A model generated the notes under the pieces. That model worked only from the letters and a program-made list of their open reading frames with translations, was not told the DNA's origin and searched no databases. Below, one piece after another: positions 1 through 30,771 of a stretch of DNA of 44,495 nucleotides (position 1 is its first letter; each line of letters starts with the position of its first letter). The DNA lies in IMG/VR virus record IMGVR_UViG_3300042879_001129, positions 1-44,495 of that record; one strand, written 5' to 3'. The DNA comes from a virus. The position numbers and the translations under genes are program-made.

Positions 1-22
1 CTCCGTTGATGCTGGCCTTCTC
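1..22. repeat. Left copy of 22-base terminal overlap (circular assembly)
   Basis: These 22 bases are identical to 44474-44495. A reading frame that begins at 44146 continues in frame across the join and ends at 149, so the overlap is best read as the closing overlap of a circular assembly and not as a biological terminal repeat. It gives a unit length of 44473 bases. The physical ends of the packaged DNA cannot be told from this. Confidence 0.9.
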
Positions 23-5318: not shown

Positions 5319-6140
5319 TCATCCCTCCTTATTCTGTCTGACGATATCTTGTATGAAAAGAAGCCCGCCGCTGACGCGGAGGTAACCCCGCTTGTCTCGC
5401 GTGACTTTGATCCCATGACCAGACGCCGACCGAACATCGGCTGGGATCAACTTCTTGATGGCCTTGTCGGCCTTCTCAAATCGGTCGGCGTGGTCCTTGG
5501 TTGTCCACCATTCGTGAGCCAAGTCGGCCCACTCGTTATTCCCGGTCATGTCCACCGTGCGGGTGGCTGCTGGCGGCGCGACAATGGCGATCTCTCCGGG
5601 TGGCATCTTCAGACGGACGCACTCCCAGAACTCGCGTTCGGCTTCGATCAGCTTGCCCGCGTACTCCAGGTCGTAGTCCACCTCGACGTAGTCGTACTCG
5701 TTGCCGCTAATGACCGAGAGGTATGCCTTCGTCACGCGCGCGCAGATCATGTTGTGGTGAAGCTGCGGCTGATACTTCGCCAGCGTCGCGGCGATGCCAA
5801 AGCGATGGCTAACGTGCTTCGCCTCAACGATGCATCCGATCCCGGCGCCATCCAGCGTCGCCGTCATCGGCACGGAGTAGGCGTCGTTGGCGCAGGACAC
5901 TCCGCGCTCCAGAGCGATCCCGGTCTTCTTCTCGAACCAGGAGAGGTTGAAGTCCTCGGTGACGGTGCCAAGCTGCACCGCAAAGACATCCGATAGATCT
6001 TCCGGCTCTCCGCCGGTCTTGAACTTCCACAGGTCGAGGATCTTCTCGCGATCCCCCGACATGATGATGTTGGCATCCGACCCGCCGATGCTTGACCGGC
6101 GTCTGGCGTGCCATTCCGCGCCCTTCTGTGCTGGCAACAT
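5319..6140 (-). CDS. YqaJ-type viral recombinase exonuclease (lambda-exo fold)
   Basis: A 273-residue nuclease of the PD-(D/E)XK superfamily, lambda exonuclease/YqaJ type, expected to resect double-stranded ends for the ERF protein downstream. It shows the N-terminal EWHARRRSSIGGSDA block (residues 9-23) and the catalytic region with D97 (ATLDG) and E106-A-K108 (IVEAKH). The start at 6140 has GGAGGG four bases upstream; a longer in-frame start at 6194 has no site and adds a poorly conserved segment. Its stop overlaps the ERF ribosome site. Confidence 0.85.
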   Translation of the reverse strand: MLPAQKGAEWHARRRSSIGGSDANIIMSGDREKILDLWKFKTGGEPEDLSDVFAVQLGTVTEDFNLSWFEKKTGIALERGVSCANDAYSVPMTATLDGAGIGCIVEAKHVSHRFGIAATLAKYQPQLHHNMICARVTKAYLSVISGNEYDYVEVDYDLEYAGKLIEAEREFWECVRLKMPPGEIAIVAPPAATRTVDMTGNNEWADLAHEWWTTKDHADRFEKADKAIKKLIPADVRSASGHGIKVTRDKRGYLRVSGGLLFIQDIVRQNKEG

Positions 6141-6190
6141 GGTTCCCTCCTGTTGTTGCGTGTGCAGAATGTATGTGCGTTTGCGAGAAG

Positions 6191-6838
6191 TCAAGCGTCT
6201 TTCTGCATTCGCACGATGGTCTCGGCGCTGAGTTCATACGGGCGAGACGCCAGCATCCTCGCGCGGGTCTCGTAGCGTTCCTTGCCGCTGATCCAATGCT
6301 CTCGGTCGATGGAAAGGGCCTCCGGGATCGGACGCTGCAACACGATGCACCTCGCCGTCGTCAGCCACGCCCTGCGCTCGAATCCATCAAGTCCAGAGTG
6401 CATGCAGTCCCATAGCTCTGGCTCTGTCGCTCCCAGGCGTCGTGCGGCTTCCTGCAAGCTGGCCGCATGGAACTCTCGGGTTCGCGCAAGCAGCCGCCGC
6501 TTCTCGATCTGGATCTCTTTGTTGTTCTCCACATCCTGCACCGCTTCGGAGTCCACCTTGTGCGGGACTTCCTCCGATTGTGCGTTGGTCTCGTCGTCGT
6601 CCAGCCACCGCTGTGCGTTGATCCAGGTCGCGGCGTGTGCGATGTATTGCTTGTCCGTGCCTCTCTTGGCGGCAGCGTAGCGCCTCGCGCCCTCTAAGAT
6701 GTCGGTGGGGCGCATCTTGAGCTTCTCGACTGCCTTGGCCCATGCCTTCTTGGCGGCCTCCTTGCTCTTGCGAAGCGGGTAGACGGCCCAGAAGGCGTCG
6801 AAGTCAGGCTCAATGGCCTGTCCGGTGAGATCCTTCAT
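6191..6838 (-). CDS. FWxxYP-type phage replication protein
   Basis: A 215-residue protein whose N-terminus carries the motif 'FDAFWAVYPLRKSKEAAKKAWAKA' followed by 'GARRYAAAK...QYIAHAATWINAQRWLDD', a domain common in phage replication initiators and helicase-loader-like proteins. The rest is helical (EIQIEKRRLLARTREFHAA) and unfamiliar, so a partner-recruiting role such as loading host replication proteins is an inference. The start at 6838 has GAAGGA upstream; the longer frame to 6955 overlaps the upstream gene. It heads the recombination set. Confidence 0.65.
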   Translation of the reverse strand: MKDLTGQAIEPDFDAFWAVYPLRKSKEAAKKAWAKAVEKLKMRPTDILEGARRYAAAKRGTDKQYIAHAATWINAQRWLDDDETNAQSEEVPHKVDSEAVQDVENNKEIQIEKRRLLARTREFHAASLQEAARRLGATEPELWDCMHSGLDGFERRAWLTTARCIVLQRPIPEALSIDREHWISGKERYETRARMLASRPYELSAETIVRMQKDA

Positions 6839-8568: not shown

Positions 8569-8742
8569 TCATCCCTCCATCTTCTGAAGCTGGCGCTCAA
8601 GGTCGGCAATGCGCTGGTGCGCCAGCAAATGATCCAGCGACTGCGGGTCCAGATCCCGTGCGAGTTCCACACGCAGAGCGATGCGCGTGCGAAGCGTTCC
8701 AGGGGTCTGGGTGATTGTTGACTTGTAGCCGTTGCTCTTCAT
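8569..8742 (-). CDS. Small hypothetical protein, 57 aa
   Basis: The start at 8742 overlaps the methyltransferase stop as ATGA, with GGAGGG at the right distance. The product has a Thr-rich N-terminus (KSTITQTPGTLRTRIALRVEL) and a short coiled-coil end (HQRIADLERQLQKMEG). Unknown role. Confidence 0.55.
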   Translation of the reverse strand: MKSNGYKSTITQTPGTLRTRIALRVELARDLDPQSLDHLLAHQRIADLERQLQKMEG

Positions 8743-9719
8743 GGTCCCTCCTTCGTTTCGATTGCGTTGATCCTGCGTCCTATCCAGGACATCACCGGCA
8801 CGGCCATGCTGTTCCCCAGCGCCCGATAGCGCGGCCCATCTGGACACTCGCTCGCCACCCTGCCGCGCCATGGGATTGCGGTGTAATCGCCAGAGAAGCC
8901 TTGCAGCCTTTCGCACTCGCGCACAGTAAGCCTTCTAGGGCGTCCGCAATGAACAAGTATCCTGCCGCTCGTTGCATCCTGTCCGTTTAGGCCCCCGCCC
9001 ATGTGCGCGCCATCGCTCAACGTCCCGCAGATCGTATCGCACCACGAGGGCGGCGCGCCGCACTTTGGGCAATTCTCACTTGGCCCGTCCTGCTCCCATG
9101 CCACTCCACATCCGAGACAGCGGATCTCATCCAGTAAGTCAGCCGCCAATCCATCTTTTGCTTGGACCTTCGCAGGAATCCTCGACATGCCTTCTCGCTC
9201 AAGAAGAACCGATGCGGCACGACGCCAGTCTCCAAGATGTCCCACAAGGAACACGCGACGGCGCCGCTGTGGAACTCCGAAGTATTGAGCGTCCAGCACT
9301 CGGTAAGCGAACCCATACCCGAGTTCTGCCATGCCCCCGACGATGGAGCCAAAGTCTCGTCCGCCAGACGACGACAGGACACCGGGGACGTTCTCCCAGA
9401 CCAGCCATCGGGGCCGTGCTCGTTGAGCAAGGCGAAGAAACTCAAGTGCCAGGTTGCCACGATCATCTGCCAGTCCGCCTCGCAGTCCCGCGACGCTGAA
9501 GCTCTGGCAGGGGGTTCCTCCGACAAGAAGGTCAATTGGGCCATACTCGTCTCCCTTGATCGTCGTGAAGTCACCGTGGCAGGGAACATGAGGGTAGTGA
9601 TGCGCCAGCACGGCGCGCGGGAACTTCTCGATCTCGCTGAAGAAGGAAGGCTCCCAGCCAAGCGGGTGCCATGCGACCGTGGCCGCTTCGATCCCGCTGC
9701 ATACCGATCCGTACCTCAT
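8739..9719 (-). CDS. C5-cytosine DNA methyltransferase with zinc-ribbon insert
   Basis: A 326-residue Dcm-type enzyme that methylates cytosine C5 using SAM. Motifs in order: GSVCSGIEA (4-12, SAM binding), GGTPCQSFSVAG (67-78, catalytic Cys71), WENVPG (108-113), QRRRRVF (151-157) and RYRALGNSMAVPV (297-309). Between the catalytic half and the C-terminal motifs is a four-Cys zinc ribbon (CLGC at 201-204 and CPKC at 217-220) in the place of the target-recognition region. The start at 9719 has GAGGAGGG upstream. No cognate restriction endonuclease is adjacent, so it is probably an orphan enzyme protecting phage DNA. Confidence 0.9.
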   Translation of the reverse strand: MRYGSVCSGIEAATVAWHPLGWEPSFFSEIEKFPRAVLAHHYPHVPCHGDFTTIKGDEYGPIDLLVGGTPCQSFSVAGLRGGLADDRGNLALEFLRLAQRARPRWLVWENVPGVLSSSGGRDFGSIVGGMAELGYGFAYRVLDAQYFGVPQRRRRVFLVGHLGDWRRAASVLLEREGMSRIPAKVQAKDGLAADLLDEIRCLGCGVAWEQDGPSENCPKCGAPPSWCDTICGTLSDGAHMGGGLNGQDATSGRILVHCGRPRRLTVRECERLQGFSGDYTAIPWRGRVASECPDGPRYRALGNSMAVPVMSWIGRRINAIETKEGP

Positions 9720-9748
9720 GGTCCCTCCTCTAAAGCAGCGCCCGTGTA

Positions 9749-9814
9749 TCACGTTGTGGCTATGTGTGTCTTGCGTTTATTGCAGGGCGTCATGCAGGGG
9801 GTGCATACCGGCAT
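9749..9814 (-). CDS. Possible Cys-containing micropeptide, 21 aa
   Basis: A 21-residue frame starting on the HNH stop (TGATG overlap), beginning MPVCTPCMTPCNKRK. The C-x2-C-x3-C spacing is unusual for so short a frame, but there is no Shine-Dalgarno sequence and it could be chance. It fills most of the gap between the HNH gene and the methyltransferase. Confidence 0.25.
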   Translation of the reverse strand: MPVCTPCMTPCNKRKTHIATT

Positions 9815-13303: not shown

Positions 13304-13310
13304 AGGGTAT
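13297..13310. promoter_or_regulatory. 14-base perfect palindrome on the terminase start codon
   Basis: ATACCCTAGGGTAT is a perfect palindrome that covers the putative -10 box and the first two bases of the ATG at 13309. It is a good candidate operator for a dimeric repressor of the structural block. Confidence 0.5.
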
Positions 13311-14058
13311 GCCCCTGACTGTGCAGGACTCCGAACCTCTCCCCTCTGAGCGGATGCCTGCCTTGGATGAGGGGGTGGTGCGGATGCTGTGGGAGGCTGG
13401 GGCGTCTTGGACGTACATCTCCAAGCGGCATCCTGTGACGAGGAGGAGGTTGAGGGAATTGAGCGAGGATTGGGACGGGGAGAAGAGGGCGGCTTCCTTG
13501 GTAGCAAGGGGGCATACGAACTCTGCGCCTGTTGGGACGGTTCCCGAGGCGAGGACGGCTGACACCAGCACGGTGGAGACTTGGCTGGCGGCCATAGGGA
13601 AGATTGTGAAGCCTAGGTGGGATGAGGCTTCTTTTCCGCTGCTGGAGGTTGCGGAGGCTTTGCACAACATCACCCGTGGGATGCCGGTTGCCTTGGCTTG
13701 CGAGGCGGCGGGGCTGACGGATCGGGTGGTGCAGAAGTACCGCAACCAGGAGCCGCGTCTTGAGGGCTATTTCCGGCGGGCGAGGGCGCTGAGTGCGAAG
13801 CCGCTGGTCGAGAAGATCATGGGGAACCCGGACTGGCGCGCGGCGGCTTGGCTGCTGGAGCGGGGGATCGCGAAGTCGGAGTTCAAGGCCGAGGCCGTTG
13901 GCAAGGAAGACAAGCTGACGATTGAGATCATGGTGAACCGCGAGGACAAGGACGCCTTGCGCGGGGTCATCGATGTGACGGAGAGCGCGAATGGCGCAAT
14001 GGTCATTGGGCTACCAGCCGAGCGAGAAGCAGAGGATCTTCCACGCGGTCAAGGCTAG
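13309..14058 (+). CDS. terS: Terminase small subunit (likely)
   Basis: A 249-residue protein directly upstream of the large terminase. Residues about 20-48 form an N-terminal helix-turn-helix (DEGVVRMLWEAGASWTYISKRHPV), a second one lies near residues 107-145 (EVAEALHNITRGMPVALACEAAGLTDRVVQKY), and the rest includes WRAAAWLLERGI and a C-terminal beta segment typical of Terminase_1-like small subunits. The small subunit recognises packaging DNA. The start is uncertain: the ATG at 13309 lacks a ribosome site, and an ATG at 13384 has GAGGGGG upstream but would remove part of the first helix-turn-helix. The gene overlaps terL by 68 bases. Confidence 0.72.
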   Translation: MPLTVQDSEPLPSERMPALDEGVVRMLWEAGASWTYISKRHPVTRRRLRELSEDWDGEKRAASLVARGHTNSAPVGTVPEARTADTSTVETWLAAIGKIVKPRWDEASFPLLEVAEALHNITRGMPVALACEAAGLTDRVVQKYRNQEPRLEGYFRRARALSAKPLVEKIMGNPDWRAAAWLLERGIAKSEFKAEAVGKEDKLTIEIMVNREDKDALRGVIDVTESANGAMVIGLPAEREAEDLPRGQG

Positions 14059-15481
14059 GCAGGTCCTCTACGGGGGCGCGGCGGGGGGCGGGAAGAGCCA
14101 TGCGATCCGCATGGATGGGATCATCTCCTGCCTGCAAAACCCCGGCTTGCAGGCCTACCTCTTCCGCCGGACCTACCCGGAACTCAAGGACAACCACCTC
14201 ATTCCCATCCAGCAGATGGCGATCCCTCCCGAGGTGGCGATTTGGAAGGAAACCGACCGGAAGCTGACGTTCTACAACGACGCCTTCCTCCAGTTCTGCT
14301 TTGCCGAGGACTTGGCCGACATCTTCAAGTACCAGGGCGCGGAGATGCATTGGCTGGGCATTGACGAGGGGGCGCTCTTCCTCCCGGATCAGTTGAAGTT
14401 CCTCCGCACCCGGGTGCGCCTTGGCCGCTACAAGGCGGCTCAGGAGGAGGTCTTCCCCCGCATCGTGATCGGCAGCAATCCCGGAGGCCCGTCCCACAAC
14501 CTCCTGCGGGACATCTTCATCGAACAAGCCCCGCCGATGCACTTCTTCCACGACAAGACGACCAAGACCAAGAACTCGCCGGGCTGGAGGAGCATCTACA
14601 TCCCCGCGAAGATGGACGACAACCCGCACCTGGATGTGGACAGCTATGAAGGATCGTTCACCGCCCTCTCCCCCGAGCGGGCCAAGGCACTACGGGACGG
14701 CGACTGGGATGTGGTTTCGGGAGCAGCCCTATCCATGCTCGACAGGGGGAGGCACATGGTACGGAGCTTCAAGCCCCCACGACATTGGACCCATCTCATG
14801 GCTATGGACTGGGGCACAGCCAAGCCCTTCTCCGTTGGATGGTACTGCATATCAGAGGGAGCAACTCTGAAGGCCAAGGACGGCTTCCCGGATGTCTACC
14901 TCCCTCCGGGCGCGAAGATCCGCTTTGCCGAGTGGTATGGCTGGAACGGCGAGGCGGACATGGGGGCGAGGATGTCGGCGGGGGCCGTGGCGCGGGAGAT
15001 CCTGCGCCTTGAGCATGAGATGGAGCTACCGCCCGTGGACATCCGCGTGGCCGACCCGCAGATGTGGGCGAGCCAGGATGGTCCCTCCCCGCAGGACAAC
15101 ATGAGGACCGCTACCGGAGGGCGCTTCATCCTCCGTCAGGGCAGGCGAGATCGGAAGGCCAACTACACGACCATCGTGGAGCATCTCGTTGGCGAGCAGG
15201 CCAATGACGGGGCGTACCACCCGATGTTCTTCGTGACCAAGAACTGCCAGCACTTCTGGCGCACTTGCCCCGGCCTGACGCTGGACGAACTGGAACCCGA
15301 CAAGGGACCGGCCACTCGGAGGCAAGAGGACCATGTTTACGACGAGACCGGCTTCGCCCTGAGCGCCCACTCTCGGGTGACCACCGAGAAGGACCGGGTC
15401 AACGACGAGTTGATGGAACTTGCCCGCGAACTTGGGGGCGTGGTATCGGATCCCTACGCAGTCAGACGCAGGAGGGCGTGA
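13991..15481 (+). CDS. terL: Terminase large subunit
   Basis: A 496-residue packaging motor. Walker A GGAAGGGKS at 28-36, Walker B ending in LGIDEG with D125/E126, and a coupling motif GSNPGG at 161-166 form the ATPase. The C-terminal RNase H-like nuclease shows MDWG (D273), VADPQMW (D355) and HVYDETGFAL (D451). It pumps DNA through the portal. GGAG lies 7 bases before the ATG within the end of terS, so the start at 13991 is well supported despite the long overlap. The stop shares a base with the next start. Confidence 0.95.
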   Translation: MAQWSLGYQPSEKQRIFHAVKARQVLYGGAAGGGKSHAIRMDGIISCLQNPGLQAYLFRRTYPELKDNHLIPIQQMAIPPEVAIWKETDRKLTFYNDAFLQFCFAEDLADIFKYQGAEMHWLGIDEGALFLPDQLKFLRTRVRLGRYKAAQEEVFPRIVIGSNPGGPSHNLLRDIFIEQAPPMHFFHDKTTKTKNSPGWRSIYIPAKMDDNPHLDVDSYEGSFTALSPERAKALRDGDWDVVSGAALSMLDRGRHMVRSFKPPRHWTHLMAMDWGTAKPFSVGWYCISEGATLKAKDGFPDVYLPPGAKIRFAEWYGWNGEADMGARMSAGAVAREILRLEHEMELPPVDIRVADPQMWASQDGPSPQDNMRTATGGRFILRQGRRDRKANYTTIVEHLVGEQANDGAYHPMFFVTKNCQHFWRTCPGLTLDELEPDKGPATRRQEDHVYDETGFALSAHSRVTTEKDRVNDELMELARELGGVVSDPYAVRRRRA

Positions 15482-15825
15482 TGGCAGGCGAGACAACCGA
15501 AGCAATCCGGCAAGTCGTGCGGTCCATGGACGGCGAATGGACGGTCCACGACATAGCCAAGATGATCCCCGGCGCGACCGTGGCGCGGGTTTCCTACGTC
15601 CTGAACTTCATGAAGTCGCGCGACCTCATCCGTCGCGTCGGAGGCAGGATGCAGAACAAGACCTTCGTGGCGATCTACGTCACGGCAGAGCCTGATGAGC
15701 CGACTCCCAGCATGTCATACGAGGAAATGGACCGCATCTTCGCGCGGCGCATGGGCAACCGGCGCTACGAGGACTCTTCCATCTCCATGACGGGGAAGTT
15801 CAGCCTTCTCGGGGCGTATAGGTGA
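15481..15825 (+). CDS. Winged-helix-like DNA-binding protein, 114 aa
   Basis: The start at 15481 follows AGGAGGG and overlaps the terL stop by one base. Residues about 5-60 look like a winged helix: AIRQVVRSMDGEWTVHDIAK, ATVARVSYVLNFMKSRDLI, then a RRVGGRMQ wing. The C-terminal part contains YEEMDRIFARRMGNRRYED and is unfamiliar. It could be a regulator of the following island or a terminase accessory protein. Confidence 0.6.
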   Translation: MAGETTEAIRQVVRSMDGEWTVHDIAKMIPGATVARVSYVLNFMKSRDLIRRVGGRMQNKTFVAIYVTAEPDEPTPSMSYEEMDRIFARRMGNRRYEDSSISMTGKFSLLGAYR

Positions 15826-15826
15826 C

Positions 15827-16609
15827 ATGGACATCAAGTTCTTCGCGCCGACAAAGGCTCCCCACCCGCTGGGCGAGAACCTTGCGCGCAATTTCTGCAA
15901 GGGCGAGTACCTTGCAACCCACGGAGAGCCACTCGCTCGCATAAACTTGCACTACGGCATCCTCTACGGGGGTGCGGAAATGCATGAAAAAGCGCGCCAG
16001 GAGGGCAAGAACTTCGTCCACGTTGACCACGCCTTCTTCGGGCGCAACGAGGACCTATGGAAGGAGCAGGGATACTTCCGCTTCTCCCTGAACCACCAGT
16101 CCAACGGCCAAGTCTACTCGAAAGAGATCGACCAGCCTCGTCTGGCAGCCCTTCAGTCGCGTGGATTGCTCAAGCTGGAGCCTCGCCAGAACCTCCAGAA
16201 GCGCCAGATCATCGTCTACCAGCCGCCAAGCCACTTCATGGTGGAGTATTTCAAGCTCCCGGCTGACTTTGACGCCAAGTGGCGCGCGGAAATCCGCACC
16301 CGCTTCCCCGGAATGATGGTCGTTACCCTCCACAAGAGCCCGAAGGACGAAACCTTCTGGGAGAACACGGCAATCGTGGCCTCGTTCAACTCCGGTCTTG
16401 GTTTCGAGGCGCTCAGAAGGGGAAAAGAGGCAATCATGACCGCTCCGCGCACCCTCTGGCCCTACATGCCGGGCGATCTTGCTGAACTGAAGTGGGCGGA
16501 ACGTCGCTTTGAGGCGTTCTGCACCATCGCCGGGCGCATGTGGAACTTTCAGGAGATGCGAAACGGCAAGGCGCTTGAGCATATGCAGCGCAATGGAGAG
16601 ATCCCGTGA
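15827..16609 (+). CDS. Glycosyltransferase-like protein (capsule-synthesis / Kdo-transferase-like)
   Basis: A 260-residue protein. The N-terminal half has YGILYGGAEMHEKARQEG and NFVHVDHAFFGR...YFRFSLNH, a pattern of bacterial proteins in polysaccharide clusters. The C-terminal half reads 'VVTLHKSPKDETFWENTAIVASFNSGLGFEALRRGKEAI', matching the nucleotide-sugar-binding 'xStxGfEAlxxGkpv' block of GT-B folds such as capsule Kdo transferases. No signal peptide or membrane helix; it should act in the cytoplasm. It opens the glycan island and overlaps the resolvase gene. The exact sugar and acceptor cannot be told. Confidence 0.6.
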   Translation: MDIKFFAPTKAPHPLGENLARNFCKGEYLATHGEPLARINLHYGILYGGAEMHEKARQEGKNFVHVDHAFFGRNEDLWKEQGYFRFSLNHQSNGQVYSKEIDQPRLAALQSRGLLKLEPRQNLQKRQIIVYQPPSHFMVEYFKLPADFDAKWRAEIRTRFPGMMVVTLHKSPKDETFWENTAIVASFNSGLGFEALRRGKEAIMTAPRTLWPYMPGDLAELKWAERRFEAFCTIAGRMWNFQEMRNGKALEHMQRNGEIP

Positions 16610-16935
16610 TCAAGGCGAAGTCCGCGAAGGCCAAGGGCCGGAAGCTGGAGCAATGGATCGTCAAGCAGTTCGAATCACTCGGCTTGACCGCTCGTCGGCA
16701 GCCGGGATCGGGCGCGTTTGACGCCTTCCCCCACGATGTCGAGGCAGTCCTCAAGGACGGCAAGCGAGTCCTCGTAGAGGCCAAGCAGCGCAGGAAGGAT
16801 GCGTGGGCTACCGGGGAGCGATGGATCGGAAGTGCCGACATCCTCGTCGTGCGGATCGACCCGGAGCCGTTTAAGCCCGAGAACGAGCCGCGCGTCTACA
16901 TGAAGTGGTCCACTTTCGAGAGGCTGGTCAAGTGA
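16606..16935 (+). CDS. Holliday-junction-resolvase-like PD-(D/E)XK nuclease
   Basis: A 109-residue protein with KGRKLEQWIVKQFESLGL (10-27), GSGAFDAFPHDVE (34-46) and the catalytic VEAKQR (57-62), matching small archaeal-type/phage resolvases and VRR-like nucleases. It would cut branched DNA before packaging or during recombination. The start is GTG overlapping the upstream stop, with GGAGAG before it. It has no other partner in the island, where it is flanked by glycan genes. Confidence 0.7.
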   Translation: MIKAKSAKAKGRKLEQWIVKQFESLGLTARRQPGSGAFDAFPHDVEAVLKDGKRVLVEAKQRRKDAWATGERWIGSADILVVRIDPEPFKPENEPRVYMKWSTFERLVK

Positions 16936-17381
16936 CTCATAGATTGAGTCTTGCTCCAATCTCGTTGACTGAGGCCAACGCATTTGTTGATGCGTTGCAC
17001 AGGCATCACAAGAAGGTAGTTGGTCACAAGTTTTCTCTTGCTGCAATTTGCGAAGAAGAAGTGGTCGGGATAGCTATTGTTGGTAGGCCGGTATCTAGGC
17101 ATAGGGACGATGGCGAAACCCTTGAAGTCACGCGCCTATGCACGAAAGGCCACAAGAACGCTTGTTCGTTTTTGTACGGTGCTGCGGCAAGAGCGGCATT
17201 TGCACTCGGATACAAAAGAATCGGGACATACACGCTTCCTGTCGAAGGTGGAGTTTCGTTGCGGGCTTCTGGATGGAAGTTGATCGGTGAGCGCGGCGGC
17301 GGTTCCTGGTCTTCTCCATCGCGGCCTCGCGTTGACAAGCACCCATTGGAAGCAAAACTTCTCTGGGAGAAAGAGGCATGA
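16932..17381 (+). CDS. XF1762 family protein (GNAT-like)
   Basis: A 149-residue protein that follows the XF1762 pattern: 'SLTEANAFVDALHRHHKKVVGHKFSLAA', 'VVGIAIVGRPVSRHRDDGETLEVTRLCTKG', 'NACSFLYGAAARAAFALGYKRIGTYTL' and 'SLRASGWKLIGE'. The fold resembles GNAT acetyltransferases, but no activity is established that I know of. The start is GTG at 16932 (GTGA overlap); an ATG at 16905 lies inside the resolvase gene. Local GC is near 43-53 % in the first 180 bases, clearly lower than around it, suggesting recent acquisition. Confidence 0.8.
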   Translation: MTHRLSLAPISLTEANAFVDALHRHHKKVVGHKFSLAAICEEEVVGIAIVGRPVSRHRDDGETLEVTRLCTKGHKNACSFLYGAAARAAFALGYKRIGTYTLPVEGGVSLRASGWKLIGERGGGSWSSPSRPRVDKHPLEAKLLWEKEA

Positions 17382-17680
17382 CTAGCCAAGTGATGACCCC
17401 AGCCCGTCTGATGGGCTACCGGCGCATGGCCGACAAGAGGCGCGGTCGCCGCTGCGGAAAGCTCCGCATTGAAGGCAACATGCATCCTCTCGTTCGCGAG
17501 TTCTTTGAACTGGTGAACAAGGACGAGTTCCTGACGATGAAGTCGCTCCGGGACAAGTCCGGCCTTGAGATCGACACGATCAGCCAATGGCGATACCAGC
17601 ACTCGCCGCAGCTTGTGTCTTTCGAGGCGGCACTCAACGCAGCGGGATATGAACTCTGCATCCGAAGGAGGAAGCAATGA
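17378..17680 (+). CDS. Helix-turn-helix protein, 100 aa
   Basis: After a basic N-terminus (RRMADKRRGRRCGKLRIEG) comes a putative helix-turn-helix: 'FFELVNKDEFLTMKSLRDKSGLEIDTISQWRYQHSPQLVSFEAALNAAGYEL'. The ending 'VSFEAALNAAGYEL' is common in phage proteins related to Cro/CI-type regulators. It may regulate the island or late genes. It overlaps both neighbours by ATGA. It is too isolated to be called a lysogeny repressor. Confidence 0.6.
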   Translation: MTSQVMTPARLMGYRRMADKRRGRRCGKLRIEGNMHPLVREFFELVNKDEFLTMKSLRDKSGLEIDTISQWRYQHSPQLVSFEAALNAAGYELCIRRRKQ

Positions 17681-18195
17681 GCAACCTCGCGTACTACAAG
17701 CAGATGCACGCCGAAGGGAAGTTCCCCGGACACTCCACCGAGAAGTGGAGCGACCAGATCGCGAAGATCATCAAGGAGTTCAACATCAAGACCATCCTCG
17801 ACTTCGGCAGCGGCAAGGGGATGCAATACACGGAACTCAAGCTGCATGAGAAATGGGGCGTGGAGATGCCCACCCTCTACGATCCTGCCGTGCCGGGCTT
17901 GGACAAGATCCCCAACATCATGTTGCCGTTTGACATGGTCATCTGCTGCGATGTGCTGGAGCATCTTGAGGACGAAGAACTTCGCCAAGCTGTGTTCAAC
18001 GCCACGATCCGCGCGCGCAAGTTTTGCTTCTTTGGCATCGCGACCTTCCCCGCCAAGAAGACGCTGCCCGATGGGCGCAACGCACACCTGACGCTCTGGT
18101 CGCGGGATGTGTGGATGCGCTTCATCACGGATGTGCGCTTCCAGGGGGATGCATACGTCCGGGTCGAGTTCGATGGAGGCGAGGATGGACGTTAA
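17677..18195 (+). CDS. Class I SAM-dependent methyltransferase
   Basis: A 172-residue protein with the SAM-binding motif I ILDFGSGKG (40-48) and the motif 'MVICCDVLEHLEDEEL' (87-102), followed by a beta strand FCFFGIATFP. The lid is short and the substrate unclear. With glycosyltransferases on both sides it most likely methylates a sugar or a small precursor. Starts with GAGGAAG before the ATG and overlaps the following gene by 11 bases. Confidence 0.75.
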   Translation: MSNLAYYKQMHAEGKFPGHSTEKWSDQIAKIIKEFNIKTILDFGSGKGMQYTELKLHEKWGVEMPTLYDPAVPGLDKIPNIMLPFDMVICCDVLEHLEDEELRQAVFNATIRARKFCFFGIATFPAKKTLPDGRNAHLTLWSRDVWMRFITDVRFQGDAYVRVEFDGGEDGR

Positions 18196-18928
18196 CCCGC
18201 TCCCGTACTGGATAGGCTTCGACGCTCGCGAGGTGGATGCGTTCGATGTCTGCTCGTTCTCGGCCCAGCGCAAGAGCAGCATTCCGCTTCATGTCCGTGC
18301 GCTCAATCACAAGCAACTGCGCGCGCGTGGCATGTTCTCTCGCGAATGGGGCGTGAACCCGAAGACCGGGCAGATGTTCGATGTCCTTGACGGGCGTCCC
18401 TTCTCGACGGAGTTCGCATTCACTCGCTTCCTCGTCCCCGCGCTCCAGAACTACCAAGGCTGGGCGCTCTTCACCGACTGCGACATCCTCTGGCTAGACG
18501 ACATCGCTGGCCTGTATGCCGAGCGGGACGACAAGTTCGCGGTGCAAGTGGTGAAGCAGAACCACATCCCTCAGAACGACATCAAGATGGACGGTCAGGT
18601 CCAGCAGCAGTACCCGCGCAAGAACTGGTCGTCCGTGATCCTGTTCAACTGCTCCCACCCGGCCAACAAGTACCTCACGCCGAGCTACGTCAACACGATC
18701 CCCGGCAAGGAACTGCACACATTCGCGTGGTTGCGTGACCATGAGATCGGTGACCTGTCGCCAGGATGGAACTTCCTCGTCGGCCACACCAAGCACACGG
18801 TGAAGCCGCGCGCCATGCACTTCACCGATGGCGGGCCATGGTTCGAGCATTTGCGCGACGTTCCATTCGGCGGATGGTGGACCAACGAGTACGACCACAT
18901 GATGAAGACCAAGGGGAGGTTTGAGTGA
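18185..18928 (+). CDS. GT-A type glycosyltransferase
   Basis: A 247-residue protein. The start at 18185 has GGAGG 5 bases upstream; longer frames run back into the methyltransferase gene. Features: 'YWIGFDAREVDAFDVC' (N-terminal strand), 'FAFTRFLVPAL', then the DxD-type metal/nucleotide-sugar motif 'ALFTDCDILWLDDI' (DCD at 98-100), 'WSSVILFNC', and a late 'MHFTDGGPWF', the arrangement seen in GT8-like enzymes. Cytoplasmic. It probably adds one sugar to a growing glycan. GTGA overlap with the FkbM gene. Confidence 0.75.
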   Translation: MDVNPLPYWIGFDAREVDAFDVCSFSAQRKSSIPLHVRALNHKQLRARGMFSREWGVNPKTGQMFDVLDGRPFSTEFAFTRFLVPALQNYQGWALFTDCDILWLDDIAGLYAERDDKFAVQVVKQNHIPQNDIKMDGQVQQQYPRKNWSSVILFNCSHPANKYLTPSYVNTIPGKELHTFAWLRDHEIGDLSPGWNFLVGHTKHTVKPRAMHFTDGGPWFEHLRDVPFGGWWTNEYDHMMKTKGRFE

Positions 18929-19551
18929 AGAAGGTTGGAGACTGGTGGCTGCCGGAAACGGACCACCACTTTGTCGGTGATCTCAGCCAGTACCAGATGG
19001 CTGCGTATCAGTCCGCCATGAAGCATGTGAAGAAGGTCTGCACGGCCATCGATGTCGGCGCGCATGTGGGGATCTACTCCGCTCGCATGGCCGCGCAGTT
19101 CGAAACGGTGCTCTCCTTTGAGCCTGACTCGGCCAACTACGCATGCCTCGTCCGCAATACGCAGGCCCTTTGCGCGCTGCATGGTTGGCTTAACGTGAAA
19201 ACCGTGATCCCGATCTACGGTGCCGCTGGCGCGCAGAGGGGGGTCGGTTCCGTGCGCGTGGACGCCATCGCCAATACCGGAGCAAGAGGATTTGAAGTTG
19301 GTGGTCAGGGACGCGTGCCGATGTACGCCATTGATGAGTTTGAATACACACTCCTTGGTCTGGTGAAGATCGACACGGAGGGTTTCGAGCATCGTGTGCT
19401 TGTCGGTGCCATGGAGACCCTCAAGCAACACAAGCCGGTCCTCATCATCGAACGGCCCAAGGAGGACTCGATCAACGTCCTTCGGCTGCTCAACTACAAG
19501 CTGGTCGATGTCGTGAACAAGGACAGCATCTTCGTGGAGAAGTCCCAATGA
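18925..19551 (+). CDS. FkbM family O-methyltransferase
   Basis: A 208-residue protein of the FkbM family, which O-methylates sugars and related compounds. It has motif I AIDVGAHVGIYSARMA (41-56), LSFEPDSANY (63-72), and the family hallmark 'VKIDTEGFEHRVLVGA' (147-162), followed by LIIERPK. The start is GTG overlapping the upstream stop; the stop overlaps the next ATG. Its place between two glycosyltransferases fits methylation of the glycan being built. Confidence 0.85.
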   Translation: MKKVGDWWLPETDHHFVGDLSQYQMAAYQSAMKHVKKVCTAIDVGAHVGIYSARMAAQFETVLSFEPDSANYACLVRNTQALCALHGWLNVKTVIPIYGAAGAQRGVGSVRVDAIANTGARGFEVGGQGRVPMYAIDEFEYTLLGLVKIDTEGFEHRVLVGAMETLKQHKPVLIIERPKEDSINVLRLLNYKLVDVVNKDSIFVEKSQ

Positions 19552-21521
19552 AGCGCAAGGTCATGGTCGCCAGCAGTTGGTCCCCCGCTGGCGAGGAACT
19601 CTACGGCAGGCGCTGGCTGGAGACGGCCAAGCAGTATTGGGGCGATCTGCTGGAGCCGAACGTCATCACGGACGCCAAGCTCGCCATGGACTTCGGCTTC
19701 CGGGGGTTCATGGAGCGCCACGCCGCGCGCCGCCTTGACCCCTCCCAGCCGGGCTATGACTACCGCCAGGATCTGCTGCGGTTCGCCCACAAGGTTTTCG
19801 CGCTCAAGATCGCCCTTCAGGAGGCCGAAGAGGACGGCTTCGACTGGCTTGTCTGGCTAGACGGAGATGTGGAGACCAAGGCCCCGATCACGGAAGCCTT
19901 CCTCGACGTAATCCTCCTTGACGACCACGACGGCGTCCTTCTCTCCCGCGCCCAGAGCGCCCCGCATCCCGAGTGCGGGTTCATGGCCTTCAACCTCAAG
20001 CTCAAGGGCGGGGACTTCCTGCGGAAGTTCGTGGGGATGTACCTCAAGGACGATGTCCTGAAGCTCTCCGAACTCCACGACAGCTACGTCTTCATGGTCT
20101 GCGTCATCGCCCACATGGAGCAGGAGAAGAGCAACTGGCACGATCTTTGCAGCATTGGGGATGGGCCGTATGGTCTGGACGCTTTCGAGGCGTCGTACCT
20201 GGATGGGGTCTTCGTCCACAAGAAGGGCAACCGCAAGTTCGGGATGACCAATGCGGAGATCGTGGAGCGCCTGCTTGCCGGTCGCCCCCATGTCCGAATC
20301 AATCCCCGCGACTTCGACGGCGAGGTGCCAGAGGACGCGGTGCCGGTCATCGACTGCGACAACGTGTCGGTCGAGAACATCCGCCGGGCGCTGCTGGCGG
20401 TAGAGGACAAGCCGTTGATATTCATCGGCTTTTACTCCTCCGACGAGGACGGCAAGCACATCGACACCTCGCGCTATGGCATCAATGCCGTGCGGACGGA
20501 CACGATTGCCTTTGAGTCGGTCGAGCGGGCGGTGGATGGGCTGGGGTTCGTCCATGTCGCCGTGACGAGGGATTGGAAGGACATCCCGGACGATCTTCCG
20601 GTGTTCCATGTGCGGCAGATGGCTCAGGCCAAGAAGGAGCAGATCAAGGCCATCACCAACAACTCCTACCAGACCAACATGCTGGTGCAGACGCAGAACT
20701 GCGTCCCGGAGGAGACCATCCGCGCCAACATCGTGGCGAACCTTGCCCAGATCCCGGAGTGGGTGCGCTACAGCCGCCACCACATGAAGCGGGCGGTCAT
20801 CGTCTCTGCCGGGCCGTCCCTCGACCTCCCCGAGACCATGGATGCCATACGCAAGGAAGTGGAGAACGGATCAATCCTCTTCTGCGTCAAGCACAGCCAC
20901 AACAAGCTGATCGCAGCCGGGCTGGTGCCGTGGGGGTGCGTCCTCCTAGACCCCCGCCCCCATGAGGGCATCTCCACCCATGGCAAGCCCCGCGCCGAGC
21001 TTCTCCCGGCAGCCTATCCGGGGGTGCGGTACTTCTGCGCCTCCATGGTGGACCCTTCTACGGTGAAGCGCCTCATGGACACGGGCGGCAAGGTCTATGG
21101 CTGGCATGCAGCCGTGGGCGCGGACGAGAAGTCCGTCCTCCCGCCCGAGCATCAGAAGTTCCTGATGGGGGGTGGGTCTTCTTCTGCCGGTCGCGCTATG
21201 ATACTTGCATGGCAATACATGGGCTTCCAGTCCATCGGCCTCTACGGCTTCGACTCCTGTCACCTTGACGAGAGCAAGCTGGACAAGGACGCGCGCCACC
21301 AGGATGGCACACCCAAATACATCCTGATGGACATGGCGGCTGGAGGCAGGAACAAGAGGTTCTGGACCGACAGGGACATCCTTTGTCAGGCGCAGGACTT
21401 CACAAGGTTCTTGCAGGAAAGCCCGTGGATTCAATGGGACGCCCACGGTCCCGGCATGGTTGCGTGGTTGTGGGAGAACACGCGCGGCAACTTGCCGAGA
21501 CTTGAGGAGACCTACGGATGA
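19548..21521 (+). CDS. Large fusion: GT-A glycosyltransferase plus MptE/DUF115-like domain
   Basis: A 657-residue protein in three parts. Residues about 1-225 form a GT-A glycosyltransferase with the DxD motif WLDGDVET (103-110). Residues about 245-400 are a linker region with Rossmann-like strands (IFIGFYSSDE, VRTDTIAFESVERAV). Residues about 413-640 match the MptE-like/DUF115 fold, starting AVIVSAGPSLD (416-426) and with 'GGGSSSAGRAMILAWQYMGFQSIGLYGFDSC'. This domain also occurs in MAF-type proteins that transfer nonulosonic acids to flagellin. It suggests a single enzyme handling donor and acceptor. Directly upstream of the portal with an ATGA overlap. Confidence 0.7.
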   Translation: MKRKVMVASSWSPAGEELYGRRWLETAKQYWGDLLEPNVITDAKLAMDFGFRGFMERHAARRLDPSQPGYDYRQDLLRFAHKVFALKIALQEAEEDGFDWLVWLDGDVETKAPITEAFLDVILLDDHDGVLLSRAQSAPHPECGFMAFNLKLKGGDFLRKFVGMYLKDDVLKLSELHDSYVFMVCVIAHMEQEKSNWHDLCSIGDGPYGLDAFEASYLDGVFVHKKGNRKFGMTNAEIVERLLAGRPHVRINPRDFDGEVPEDAVPVIDCDNVSVENIRRALLAVEDKPLIFIGFYSSDEDGKHIDTSRYGINAVRTDTIAFESVERAVDGLGFVHVAVTRDWKDIPDDLPVFHVRQMAQAKKEQIKAITNNSYQTNMLVQTQNCVPEETIRANIVANLAQIPEWVRYSRHHMKRAVIVSAGPSLDLPETMDAIRKEVENGSILFCVKHSHNKLIAAGLVPWGCVLLDPRPHEGISTHGKPRAELLPAAYPGVRYFCASMVDPSTVKRLMDTGGKVYGWHAAVGADEKSVLPPEHQKFLMGGGSSSAGRAMILAWQYMGFQSIGLYGFDSCHLDESKLDKDARHQDGTPKYILMDMAAGGRNKRFWTDRDILCQAQDFTRFLQESPWIQWDAHGPGMVAWLWENTRGNLPRLEETYG

Positions 21522-23644
21522 ACGACCGCAAATGGCGAGGGGACAACGAGAAGATCCGGCGCAAGAAGCGTCAGGCCCTCAACGCGCTCCTCGTCAACAT
21601 TGCGGACAGTCTCTCCGAGCAAGAACGCGAGTCCATCGCCCAGGTCTGCCTTGAGGACTTCAGGTCGGACATGGAGAGCCGCACCGAGTGGGATGCCATG
21701 CATGCCGACTGGGTCGCGGTCTACAACCAGCAGGACGCGCCGATCAACCGCCCGTGGCCCAACTCCTCGGACGAGAGCCTTGGCCTGCTGACGGAAGCTT
21801 GCAACAGCTTCCAGAGCCGCGCCTACAAGGCATTCTTCGCGAGCCGGATGCCGGTCGCCGCGATCTCGACCAACCCCTCCGTTCCGGGTTCTTCCGAGCG
21901 CGCCAAGAGGGTCAGCCAGTTCCTCCAATGGTCCCTGTTCTTCAAGGACCAGACCTACAAGGAGGACAAGTCGGCCATGCTGCTGCGGGTTGCGGTGCAT
22001 GGGTCGGACTTCACGAAGACGTACTTTGACCCGGTGATGAACAAGATCGTCACCCGCGCCGTCCGTGCCGAAGACCTCTACGTCCCGTACCACATCGGGC
22101 CGATCAACATAGAGGATGTGCATCGCAAGACGGAGTTGATCTACCTCAACCTCAACGATGGACGCATCCGCGCCTCGGAGGGCTACTTCCTCGTCCCGCC
22201 CGAGCCGATGATGATCGGGCAGTTGTCGTCGCCCATCCAGGAGCAGAACGACAGGGACAACGGCATCCATGCCTCTGCCACGCAGAGCGAGGACATGGCC
22301 CAGATTATTGAGCAGCATTGCCACCTTGACCTCGACGGGGACGGGATCGCGGAGCCGTACAAGATCTGGATCGACGTTACCTCGGAGAAGCTGCTCCGCA
22401 TCGAAGTGCGGTACGAGGTTGACCAGACCGGGCGTCCGCTCAACGGTCGCCTGCCGATTGAGGAATACACGCACTACCGCTTCCTTGTGAACCCGGACGG
22501 CTTCTACGGGTACGGGCTTGGCTTCCTGCTGGGCAAGACGAACATCGCCGTCAACAAGCTCTTGCGCCAGTTCATCGACGCAACCACGCTGTCGATCCAC
22601 GGCAACATGAGCGGGTTCATCTCGGAGGCCCTGAACATCAGCAAGGGGCCGGTGAAGATCGAACTCGGCAGCCTGAAGACGGTCTCGGCCAGCACGGACG
22701 ATATCCAGAAGGGCATCAAGACGCTGTCCTTCCCCGCCCCGCCGCCCACCCTCATGCAGGCCATTGCCCAGCTTGAGACACGCGCCCAGCGCATCGGAGC
22801 GACCACGGATGCCGCTGCGGGCGACATCAACAAGGTCTTCCAGCCCACGACCATGCAGACGATGGTCGAGCAGTCGCTGGTGATGTTCACCTCGGTGCAG
22901 GAGTTCCTGCTGCATTCGTGGTCGAAGGAACTGAACAAGATCTATCGCCTCCACGGGATCTACTTCCGTGGAATCGAGAGCTTCATCTCGGTCAGCCCGG
23001 AGGGACCGGAGGAGATGGTGGTCAGCGACCAGGACTTCATGGACGACATGCTCATCATGCCCGTGGCTGATCCCCGGATGATGAACCAGCAGAGCCGCCT
23101 CCAGAAGGCACAGTTCCTGTTCGACTTCGCCACGAAGAACCCCCTTGTCGCGAACAATCCGGAAGTCCTGCTCGCGGTGTCGAGGAGGCTGCTAGAGGAG
23201 ATGGAAATTGACGGGATTGACAGCATTCTTCCGCGATCTGTGGACCAACTACCGGAGCCTGCGCCAGATCCGAAGGCCATGGCTGAGCAGGCGAAGGTCC
23301 AGGTCGAGCAGCAGAAGCTCCAGCTAGAGGCGCAGTCGGCGCAGCAGCAGTTGCAGATCGAAGCGCAGAAGATGCAAGTCGATCAGCAGATGAAGCAGGC
23401 GCAGATGGTCGGAGACCAGCAGCTTCAGCAGCTTCGCATCGAAAACGAGCGGATGTTGCAGGAGATGCGAATCCAGAACGAGGCCGAGATCGCGCGCATG
23501 AAGCAGGAATACGAGAACGTGCGCGTCCAGCAGGAGCTTGCCGCCAAGCAGTCCATGGAGGCCCAGAAGGCCAAGATGGAGTCTGACACGAAGATCATGG
23601 TGGCGCGCATCGGTGCTGCCGGTGCGGATGTCCCCGGCATCTAA
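21518..23644 (+). CDS. Portal protein
   Basis: A 708-residue dodecameric portal through which DNA is packaged and ejected. It has typical podovirus portal blocks: 'RTEWDAMHADWVAVYNQQ', 'PWPNSSDESLGLLTEACNSFQSRAYKAFF', 'PEDLYVPY'-like 'AEDLYVPYHIG', 'HCHLDLDGDGIAEPYKIWID', and 'NPDGFYGYGLGFLLG...INKLLRQF'-type stem sequence. Residues about 580-700 are a Gln/Glu/Met-rich coiled coil (QQLQIEAQKMQVDQQMKQ), likely the barrel. ATGA overlap with the fusion gene. Confidence 0.88.
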   Translation: MNDRKWRGDNEKIRRKKRQALNALLVNIADSLSEQERESIAQVCLEDFRSDMESRTEWDAMHADWVAVYNQQDAPINRPWPNSSDESLGLLTEACNSFQSRAYKAFFASRMPVAAISTNPSVPGSSERAKRVSQFLQWSLFFKDQTYKEDKSAMLLRVAVHGSDFTKTYFDPVMNKIVTRAVRAEDLYVPYHIGPINIEDVHRKTELIYLNLNDGRIRASEGYFLVPPEPMMIGQLSSPIQEQNDRDNGIHASATQSEDMAQIIEQHCHLDLDGDGIAEPYKIWIDVTSEKLLRIEVRYEVDQTGRPLNGRLPIEEYTHYRFLVNPDGFYGYGLGFLLGKTNIAVNKLLRQFIDATTLSIHGNMSGFISEALNISKGPVKIELGSLKTVSASTDDIQKGIKTLSFPAPPPTLMQAIAQLETRAQRIGATTDAAAGDINKVFQPTTMQTMVEQSLVMFTSVQEFLLHSWSKELNKIYRLHGIYFRGIESFISVSPEGPEEMVVSDQDFMDDMLIMPVADPRMMNQQSRLQKAQFLFDFATKNPLVANNPEVLLAVSRRLLEEMEIDGIDSILPRSVDQLPEPAPDPKAMAEQAKVQVEQQKLQLEAQSAQQQLQIEAQKMQVDQQMKQAQMVGDQQLQQLRIENERMLQEMRIQNEAEIARMKQEYENVRVQQELAAKQSMEAQKAKMESDTKIMVARIGAAGADVPGI

Positions 23645-28326: not shown

Positions 28327-29217
28327 ATGACGACCGGAACTGGCAATCTCCCTGAACTCCTGTGGCCCGGCATCTCCACGATCTGGGCCGACACCTACCG
28401 CCGCTACCCGCCGCTGTGGAACCGCTTCATGATCCTGCGTCGCTCGAACAAGGCGTTCGAGAAGGAGCAGGGCGTGACGGGCTTCGGCCTCGTCGGGCAG
28501 AAGGACGATGGTGACAGCGTCCCGTATGTGGACATGCTCCAGGGCTATCAGCGCGAGTACGTCAACCTGACCTACGGGCTGGGCACGACGATCACCCGCG
28601 AACTGATGGAAGACGAGCAGTACAACGTCATCAACAACGTGCCGAAGATGCTGGCTGAGTCGATGCGTCAGACGGAAGAGACCGTCGCCGCTTCGGTCTT
28701 CAACCTCGGCTTCAGCACGATGCTGACGGCGGATGGCAACGCCTTCTTCTCCTCGACGCACCCGAATGTCCGTGGTGGCACCCAGCGGAACATCCCCGCT
28801 GTCGCCTCGGACCTGACGCAGGCGTCGCTGGAGCAGGCGTACATCGACATCCACGACTTGCGCGACGACTCCGACCTGAAGATCAACCTTATGCCCGAGA
28901 AGCTGCTGGTCGCCCCGACCAACCGCTTCGTGGCTGAGAAGATCCTCGGGACGAAGTTCGCGGTGGGTTCGGCTGACAACGACATCAATCCGATGGCGGG
29001 CCAGCTTGACCTGATCGTGAACCCGTTCCTCACGGACCCGGATGCGTGGTTCATCATCACGAACGCCAAGGCGGGCGCGACGTTCTACCGTCGCCGCAAC
29101 GCCGAGATCACCCGTGACAACGAGTTCGACACGGAGATCCTCAAGACGAAGACGACGGCGCGCTTCTCGGTGGGTGCCACCGACTGGCGCTACGCCTACG
29201 CTTCGGCTGGCGCGTAA
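28327..29217 (+). CDS. Major capsid protein
   Basis: A 296-residue HK97-fold coat protein resembling the Mu-like head subunit type. It has 'NLPELLWPGISTIWADTYRRYPPLWNRFM', 'VTGFGLVGQKDDGDSVPYVDMLQGYQREYVNLTYGLGTTITRELMEDEQYNVI', and a strand-rich end 'AWFIITNAKAGATFYRR'. GAGGACC precedes the ATG. It is followed by an intrinsic terminator candidate, suggesting strong separate expression of the capsid gene set. Confidence 0.85.
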   Translation: MTTGTGNLPELLWPGISTIWADTYRRYPPLWNRFMILRRSNKAFEKEQGVTGFGLVGQKDDGDSVPYVDMLQGYQREYVNLTYGLGTTITRELMEDEQYNVINNVPKMLAESMRQTEETVAASVFNLGFSTMLTADGNAFFSSTHPNVRGGTQRNIPAVASDLTQASLEQAYIDIHDLRDDSDLKINLMPEKLLVAPTNRFVAEKILGTKFAVGSADNDINPMAGQLDLIVNPFLTDPDAWFIITNAKAGATFYRRRNAEITRDNEFDTEILKTKTTARFSVGATDWRYAYASAGA

Positions 29218-29334: not shown

Positions 29335-30771
29335 ATGACCCTCAAGACGCAGTTCTCCGGCCCCGTTGCCTCTGGCATCAACACGGGCAACATCCCCACG
29401 ACCAACAAGGGCTTCGGTCGGTTCACCGTGTGGACCCCGCTGACGACCCTTCCGATCACGGCCCAGCCCGTCGCGGTCCTGCCCTTTGATGCGGTCCTGC
29501 ATGAGATCAACATCTGGAAGACCGGGGCCTTCACGGGCGAGGCGGCCTTCAAGTTTGGCACCGGCCTGAATGGCTCGGACAACCTCGGCAGCGTCTCTAT
29601 CTCGGGCAACTCGGTCTACCGGGCATTCGTCAACTCGGCCACGGCCCAGACCACCCTGCCGTTCGCCCACGCGGGCGTTTCGGCCAACCCGACCCCGATC
29701 TACTTCTCCACGGGCGCGATCTCGGGCACGACGAGCGCACTCGCCTCGGCTGCCTTCGTGGAGGTCATCTACACCCGCATTTCCCTGACGGATCGCCCGG
29801 ATCTTGTTGCGGCGCACAAGGGCAACGACACGGCTTTTCAGGGGCCGGTTCGGTCTGGCGGCCAGGATGTCGGCATCCCGTCCCGGTCCACGGTCGGCAA
29901 CCTTGTCACCATCCAGCAGGCCACGGCAGCGTCCTCGCCGGTCAGCGGTCAGGTGGTGGGGATGATCCCCTACGGCGCTTACCTCAAGGAGATCAACTTC
30001 TACTGCCGCACGGCCCCGGCTGGCGAGGCGACGGTTCGCTTTGCCATCAACGGGGAGTCGGACAACCTCGGTAGCGTCTCGGTCTCTGCCGCTGGCGTCT
30101 ACTCGGTGGCCCTGACCTCTGCCGTCCGCGCCACGGTCCCGCTGGGCATCAACAGCGGCTCGGGCCAGCCGGTCAGGATGTCGGTCCTCGCGGCCTCCGG
30201 TTCCGTCGCGGCCCTTCAGGGCATGGGTGAGCTTGTCATGGTCCGCAGGGGCCAGTCGGACGGCTACCCCGGCCCCGGCCAGAAGGAGACGACCTTCCAG
30301 GGTCCCATCGCCACGGGCGTCAACAGCGGTCTGTGGGGCAACGCCAAGCCCGAGATCGGGTGGGGCCGGTTCTCCAAGCTGACGACCACGATCCCCTCGA
30401 CCAATGGTGTGGTTTCCGGCCTCCTCGTCGGCTACCTCCCCATCGGCGCGGCGCTGGTGGAGATCAACTACATCGCTGGCACGGCTGCTGCGGGAGAGGC
30501 GACGGTGCGGGCGGGTACGTCCCCCACGGCCTTCACCTCGGACACGCTGGGTGCGGTGTCGGTCTCTGCGGCTGGCATCTACAGCGTGATCTCCTCGACG
30601 GCAGTCCGGGCCTTCGATGACTCGGGCGTCAACCGCGCCAAGAGCGGGGCCACGGCGCAGGCCATCTACCTCAACGTCGCGGCTGCCTCGGGCAGCATCG
30701 CCACGCTGAGTGCAAACGCGGCGGTTGAGATCGTCTACACCCGCCTCGACCCCTCCACCTACGGAGTCTGA
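29335..30771 (+). CDS. Structural protein built of three tandem repeat domains
   Basis: A 478-residue beta-rich protein made of three related ~140-residue units at about 6-150, 167-305 and 320-471. Each begins FxGPxxSGxN-like, has 'LPxxAxLxEIN', a 'GEAxxxFG' segment, 'DNLGSVSVSAAGVYSV', and ends near 'VEVIYTR'. No enzymatic motif. The repeats suggest a trimeric-like or elongated head fibre or tail component. It follows the capsid gene after a terminator. Confidence 0.7.
   Translation: MTLKTQFSGPVASGINTGNIPTTNKGFGRFTVWTPLTTLPITAQPVAVLPFDAVLHEINIWKTGAFTGEAAFKFGTGLNGSDNLGSVSISGNSVYRAFVNSATAQTTLPFAHAGVSANPTPIYFSTGAISGTTSALASAAFVEVIYTRISLTDRPDLVAAHKGNDTAFQGPVRSGGQDVGIPSRSTVGNLVTIQQATAASSPVSGQVVGMIPYGAYLKEINFYCRTAPAGEATVRFAINGESDNLGSVSVSAAGVYSVALTSAVRATVPLGINSGSGQPVRMSVLAASGSVAALQGMGELVMVRRGQSDGYPGPGQKETTFQGPIATGVNSGLWGNAKPEIGWGRFSKLTTTIPSTNGVVSGLLVGYLPIGAALVEINYIAGTAAAGEATVRAGTSPTAFTSDTLGAVSVSAAGIYSVISSTAVRAFDDSGVNRAKSGATAQAIYLNVAAASGSIATLSANAAVEIVYTRLDPSTYGV

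Follow-up and report, generated by a model that had tools for sequence, protein, structure and literature searches.

A putative glycosylation and methylation operon between the terminase and portal genes of a small aquatic bacterial virus

The window analysed here is a whole IMG/VR virus record (IMGVR_UViG_3300042879_001129; 44,495 nucleotides), from a small aquatic bacterial virus. Between the genes of the terminase large subunit (terL) and the portal protein, it carries a single operon of nine overlapping genes (15481-21521) that includes predicted glycosyltransferases and methyltransferases. We consider it somewhat probable that this cassette directs the late O-glycosylation of a virion protein by soluble enzymes, together with methylation of the added sugars, using host nucleotide sugars as donors. 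An initial annotation had proposed virion decoration or a block to superinfection as the purpose of these genes, and the first of these is the better supported.

All nine genes are on the plus strand. The operon starts with a putative small winged-helix-like protein of 114 amino acids (15481-15825), for which there were weak Pfam and PADLOC matches only. It is followed by g260 (15827-16609), a probable GT-B-like half of a KpsC/KpsS-related transferase, weakly assigned from a motif-level profile alignment, and by a PDDEXK nuclease or Holliday-resolvase-like protein (16606-16935; phrog_244, E 2.5e-6; phrog_23036, E 9e-5), a Mom-like DNA-modification protein (16905-17381; phrog_1384, E 3.5e-37) and a small helix-turn-helix (HTH)-like protein of 100 amino acids belonging to no Pfam or PHROG family (17378-17680). 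The remaining four genes encode a class-I S-adenosylmethionine (SAM) methyltransferase, hereafter MT1 (17677-18195; phrog_24759, E 7e-15), a DxD (DCD) glycosyltransferase, GTA1 (18185-18928; phrog_28018, E 7e-60), an FkbM-type O-methyltransferase (fkbM, 18925-19551; PF05050, E 5.8e-12) and a fusion of a DxD glycosyltransferase-like N-terminal domain, GTN, to an MptE-like/DUF115 (Maf_flag10) C-terminal domain (19548-21521; PF01973, E 1e-13). The five proteins named in the initial annotation are all open frames where it had placed them, and it missed the other four, namely the winged-helix-like, PDDEXK, Mom-like and 100-amino-acid genes. It thereby overlooked the DNA-related genes of the operon: Mom and PDDEXK here, and Vut_1 and DpdA-type genes in relatives. 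The glycan-related genes have no PADLOC match, and a defence-system identity was rejected.

From the terL stop to the portal, neighbouring genes overlap by 1-31 nt, apart from one pair spaced by 1 nt. The ATG of the first gene shares one base with the terL stop, and the fusion gene joins the portal through an ATGA overlap. A scan restricted to sigma-70-type promoters gave no promoter-like site inside the cassette, and terminator-like sites there were no more numerous than expected by chance. The layout of the cassette is thus that of a single message shared with terL and portal, and its expression would accordingly be late.

The FkbM and DUF115 assignments, both already made in the initial annotation, were confirmed by profile searches. 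FkbM scored 46.5 bits with PF05050, above the curated cut-off of 22.7, and also matched phrog_8156 (E 6.6e-22) and the FkbM structure 2py6 in the PDB (E 0.006). Residues 394-573 of the fusion correspond to positions 2-169 of the 171 in PF01973 (51.9 bits, cut-off 34.6). The N-terminal half of the fusion has an invariant D-x-D motif (58 of 58 gap-free sequences) but matched no Pfam family, so that the GT-A nature that had been proposed for it is putative. For GTA1, both aspartates of the D-C-D motif are retained in 167-168 of 168 aligned sequences; the protein agrees with the phrog_28018 profile and falls below the Pfam cut-off for Glyco_transf_8 (E 0.009), its GT-A fold being predicted from sequence only. 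GTA1 and the N-terminal domain of the fusion are not alignable, and no kinship between them was detectable. MT1 contains the conserved motifs DVxEH and LPDGRNAH and lies just under the Pfam cut-off for Methyltransf_23 (E 4.7e-5). A PDB sequence search with MT1 returned general methyltransferases only, and those with g260, GTA1 and the fusion were uninformative. The Mom-like protein is below the cut-off for PF25680 (E 0.0013); it is assigned through phrog_1384, and its activity is a predicted one.

The capsule-like transferase announced at 15827, g260, had no match in Pfam, including PF05159 Capsule_synth (KpsC/KpsS), or in PHROG, and what remains of that claim is a faint KpsC/S-type motif. A profile of g260 and its relatives aligns to a KpsC-annotated protein of phage DSL-LC06 (90.7%, E 1.3e-6) through a N-S-x-x-G-x-E-A-L-x-x-G signature, with control proteins near zero. 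Iterated extension of the hidden Markov model added nothing, and a scan of five genomes with g260 gave nothing significant. The protein may work like a PF05159 member although it is not filed as one. A GTA1 fusion protein of L043 (L-numbers are the labels of the compared contigs and loci) is homologous to g260 in its C-terminal part. In this viral contig, which is rich in glycan-related genes, a single protein (L043:5051-6751) combines a GTA1-type N-terminus with a g260-like C-terminus.

None of the cassette proteins has a transmembrane-like segment (none above 1.6 mean Kyte-Doolittle), and neither a flippase nor a nucleotide-sugar synthesis gene was seen in the profile scans of the cassette. 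The membrane flippase and membrane glycosyltransferase typical of GtrABC serotype conversion were likewise not found in it. The simplest model is the cytoplasmic building of a short glycan on a protein, with donors supplied by the host. The enzymes would be made from the same transcript as terminase and portal. The first sugar would be attached by the DUF115 (Maf/sialyltransferase-like) domain and/or a DxD glycosyltransferase to an acceptor of the head, the decoration or the tail fibres, with host nucleotide sugars as donors, possibly CMP-3-deoxy-D-manno-octulosonate (CMP-Kdo) or a CMP-nonulosonate. GTA1 and the KpsC/S-like protein would then extend the glycan, and MT1 and FkbM would finish it with O-methyl caps, in the manner of A064R/A061L on the capsid glycan of a chlorovirus. 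The benefit may be a changed adsorption or a shielding of the virions. The PDDEXK protein and Mom probably have separate, DNA-side functions and share the late slot.

The head protein, a triple-repeat protein and the fibre are our guesses for the acceptor. The second of these consists of three tandem domains of ~155 amino acids, as seen by translation and repeat alignment (29335-30771, plus strand), contains 20% Ser+Thr and directly follows the major head protein, which makes it a candidate decoration protein and a possible acceptor. L035, and possibly L050, also has single-domain proteins with a similar-looking motif behind the head protein.

The initial annotation considered the run to be an insertion, and the comparison with other phages is in accordance with this. 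The nearest portal proteins are those of Alcaligenes phage QDWS535 and of MW202796, in which TerL directly abuts the portal, leaving ~6.0 kb extra at the window junction. The portal and head proteins of these phages are homologous to those of the window; however, no homology was detectable between their TerL and that of the window, and the empty site is thus inferred from position and not from aligned flanks. We found no close relative without the cassette, from which we conclude that the insertion is old. The cassette is therefore a real insertion of ~6 kb, and a stable late operon can reside at the usually closed junction between packaging genes and portal.

Nineteen contigs found through the fusion have the TerL-to-portal order as far as each of them covers it, and separate contigs with this order have 61-100% protein identity. 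Three more divergent contigs (L032-L034; GTA1 identity 66-69%) also have the cassette, and so does every close TerL relative found. The ratios of nonsynonymous to synonymous substitution rates against relatives are 0.03-0.26 for the cassette genes and 0.03-0.17 for terL and portal; the cassette genes are under purifying selection. An assembly artefact or mis-join, named beforehand as what might undo the proposal, was rejected because many separate contigs carry the core at the same place under such selection.

All well-covered relatives have MT1, GTA1 and the fusion, and the PDDEXK protein is 82-99% identical in relatives. Other members vary. The operon acquired the Mom-like gene recently, as an accessory member confined to the window and two contigs identical to it; the 100-amino-acid HTH-like gene is absent from L007; L034 lacks fkbM and carries another methyltransferase; and in L011 and L012 a Vut_1 transporter gene and a queuine-transferase-like (DpdA-type) gene lie between fkbM and the fusion. 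Such turnover, seen for Mom, for fkbM, for the inserted pair and for the second HTH gene, would be expected of a loose set of late 'moron' genes that each have a function of their own and yield no common glycan product. We hold this reading to be very doubtful, given the constancy of MT1, GTA1 and the fusion and the recurrence of these partners in unrelated phages, where MT1 and DUF115 can even be joined in one protein.

The inserted pair in L011 (5571-6817; also in L012) comprises Vut_1, which is YhhQ-like, and the DpdA-type gene, and it suggests a predicted 7-deazaguanine DNA modification in this relative. Together with the Mom-like gene in the same operon, the adjacent PDDEXK nuclease and a C5-cytosine methylase (8739-9752), it could mean that the cassette hypermodifies the phage DNA, adding sugars and methyl groups onto a modified base ahead of packaging. 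DNA hypermodification by virus-encoded glycosyltransferases has a precedent (Pyle et al. 2024, as cited in PMC12619734). However, among the larger proteins scanned there was no enzyme for a hydroxymethylated base, be it a hydroxymethylase, a thymidylate-synthase-like or a TET/JBP protein. Mom and DpdA modify bases without the need of glycosyltransferases. Moreover, the glycosyltransferase and methyltransferase core persists without Mom or the DpdA-like gene, both of which are accessory and vary from relative to relative, and this makes a DNA target quite improbable.

The same enzymes recur in unrelated phages. Caulobacter Ccr phages, Stenotrophomonas phage DLP_6 and MW202512 have MT1 next to GTA1; in MW202512 the order is head protein, tetratricopeptide repeat (TPR) protein, nuclease, MT1, GTA1 and SU10 adaptor. 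L047 has the order TerL, portal, GTA1 and GTN, and L071 the order head protein, GTA1, MT1-DUF115 fusion and tail protein. In CcrColossus (L022) the homologues, gp129 and gp130, sit after the tail genes, MT1 follows the coat protein in CRP-9, and Pelagibacter phage Mosig (L021) has homologues of FkbM, GTN and GTA1 side by side. TPR proteins precede GTA1 in L023, L035 and L050, adjoining the MT1-GTA1 pair in L023 and L050 and GTA1 in L035. In Tetraselmis viridis virus S20 (TvV-S20), a run of nine mostly glycan-related genes stands ahead of head closure, between the head and tail modules. The recorded host of this virus (NC_020840, L025) is a green alga; its genome holds terminase, portal, head protease, tape measure and endolysin genes, and by this gene content it is a tailed bacteriophage despite the recorded host.

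Within 1.5 kb of GTA1, viral loci contained MT1 in 10 of 74 cases, FkbM in 13 and GTN in 19, against 0, 1 and 2 of 80 bacterial or archaeal loci (Fisher p 5e-4, 4e-4 and 2e-5, respectively; these values are optimistic, since loci of one lineage are not independent). The grouping therefore looks like a phage module and not like a borrowed host cluster, and a host-derived cluster as a unit was rejected, its partners being rare around bacterial GTA1. An ancestry of single genes from bacteria is likely; relatives of GTA1 are common in alphaproteobacterial genomes, and a genome scan with the fusion and narrow patterns gave no bacterial homologue. In the open-access literature, no paper was found that describes the cassette or assigns a function to the MT1, GTA1, FkbM and GTN grouping. 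As to the claim that the exact pathway is novel, these genes occur together in many other phages, isolates included. Tentatively, one may picture MT1, GTA1, GTN/DUF115 and FkbM as a dedicated, horizontally shared phage module for O-glycosylation and methylation, largely absent in this arrangement from bacteria, by which unrelated phages mark their virion proteins. In the lineage of the window, it would belong to a late 'finishing' operon between packaging motor and portal into which Mom and DpdA-like genes are also gathered, so that capsids and genomes would both be customised just before packaging.

Several observations weigh against virion decoration. GTA1 relatives lie away from structural genes in DLP_6 and in the T4-like Mosig and S-SCSM2R, and much of a small phage genome is structural, which makes a location near structural genes weaker evidence. 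DNA modification also uses the slot, through Mom here and a DpdA-like gene in a relative. AlphaFold models built with 6-7 relatives were unusable, with a predicted local distance difference test score (pLDDT) of 38 for g260 and 44 for the fusion. Finally, cytoplasmic glycosyltransferases also build the lipopolysaccharide (LPS) core and can act on its intermediates. A soluble cassette could for this reason alter host surface glycans late, acting on precursors of the LPS core or the capsule at the inner membrane face, so that progeny avoid re-adsorption to debris or rivals cannot superinfect. The KpsC/S-like signature and the FkbM and DUF115 domains are known from surface-glycan pathways, and the alphaproteobacterial GTA1 relatives would also fit. 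Nevertheless, the cassette shows no membrane protein, flippase or nucleotide-sugar gene, GTA1 is grouped with MT1, FkbM and GTN in phages and rarely in bacterial loci, and the coupling to portal suggests an expression so late that little gain would be left for the infected cell. We regard a change of the host surface as unlikely. Synechococcus phage S-SCSM2R (L024) has its GTA1 relative near KdsA and KdsB, which serve CMP-Kdo synthesis; this proximity counts for a host-surface role and hints that related glycans may use a donor of the Kdo type.

Virion glycosylation by phages is already known, and among tailed phages it has been shown for few only. In mycobacteriophages (Che8 and related), capsid and tail-tube proteins carry glycans that have been linked to phage-encoded glycosyltransferases (Freeman et al. 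2023, as cited in PMC11256854 and PMC12619734). The cassette resembles these systems in its phage-encoded glycosyltransferases. In Maravista, however, such genes are described near the 3' end of the genome (PMC11256854) and not between terL and portal, and the predicted system of the window differs in having two DxD domains, DUF115, MT1 and FkbM. A combination of virus-encoded glycosyltransferase domains and methyltransferases also exists in PBCV-1, where a capsid glycan receives sugars and two O-methyl caps from A064R/A061L (PMC9614988); PBCV-1 differs in being a eukaryotic virus, with an N-glycan and other glycosyltransferase families.

In bacteria, Maf enzymes with a PF01973 domain O-glycosylate Ser/Thr of proteins and accept CMP-Kdo or CMP-N-acetylneuraminate (CMP-Neu5Ac); the domain is structurally like the sialyltransferase Cst-II, and the acceptor is a self-assembling protein (PMC11339370). 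The fusion has this domain in common with the Maf flagellin O-glycosyltransferases but differs in its N-terminus, a DxD glycosyltransferase-like domain related to phage GTN proteins, and in the absence of a flagellin context, no flagellin being found among the phage genes scanned. The Maf enzymes consist of a Rossmann-like N-terminal, a Maf_flag10 and a helical C-terminal domain; in the fusion, ~80 residues follow the PF01973 match. The kinship with flagellin sugars seen in the initial annotation is supported for the DUF115/MptE domain only. FlmG is a soluble cytoplasmic O-glycosyltransferase with a GT-B domain, whose TPRs bind the acceptor flagellin (PMC7591256), and it recalls the GTA1 loci with neighbouring TPR proteins. 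However, no TPR protein was detected in the window itself. The cluster of Mosig, a T4-like marine phage, with its overlapping genes, is similar to the cassette but stands beside nucleotide-metabolism genes, and no DUF115 match was found in it.

What is unusual in the cassette is its location, the phage-specific partnership of its enzymes and their mixing with DNA-marking genes. If decoration of the virion proves true, the MT1-GTA1 pair and the DUF115 fusions would constitute a sequence signature predicting glycosylated phages, with a bearing on adsorption, particle stability and phage recognition. Isolates that carry the pair, such as the Caulobacter phages, make the module testable.

The exact 22-bp repeat common to both ends of the window (1-22 and 44474-44495) is expected for a closed assembly, and the record is probably a complete virus genome. 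A DNA-level search with the cassette region matched no named phage. The leftward genes include Erf/YqaJ-type recombination genes and the C5-cytosine methylase. The rightward morphogenesis run, on the plus strand, comprises the terminase small subunit (13309-14058; phrog_4102, E 7.6e-6) and terL (13991-15481; phrog_979, E 4e-33), which bound the cassette on the left, the portal on its right (21518-23644; PF23899 SU10_portal, E 2e-11; phrog_1216), the major head protein (28327-29217; phrog_4523, E 4e-24; phrog_371), tail proteins and a tail-fibre-like virion protein with DUF7483 and SPRY-like domains (41792-44149; PF24299, E 5.6e-97; phrog_19943, phrog_24898). In the middle of the C5-cytosine methylase, which is on the minus strand, there is a rubredoxin-like zinc-ribbon match below the cut-off (PF21349, E 2e-4). 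In two relatives, L006 (4014-6356) and L016, TerL contains an in-frame Hint/intein-like insert (CFVAGT...VHNC; PF13403, E 4e-8), and an HNH endonuclease open reading frame (5648-6208; PF13392, E 7e-20) is nested inside this insert in a different reading frame.

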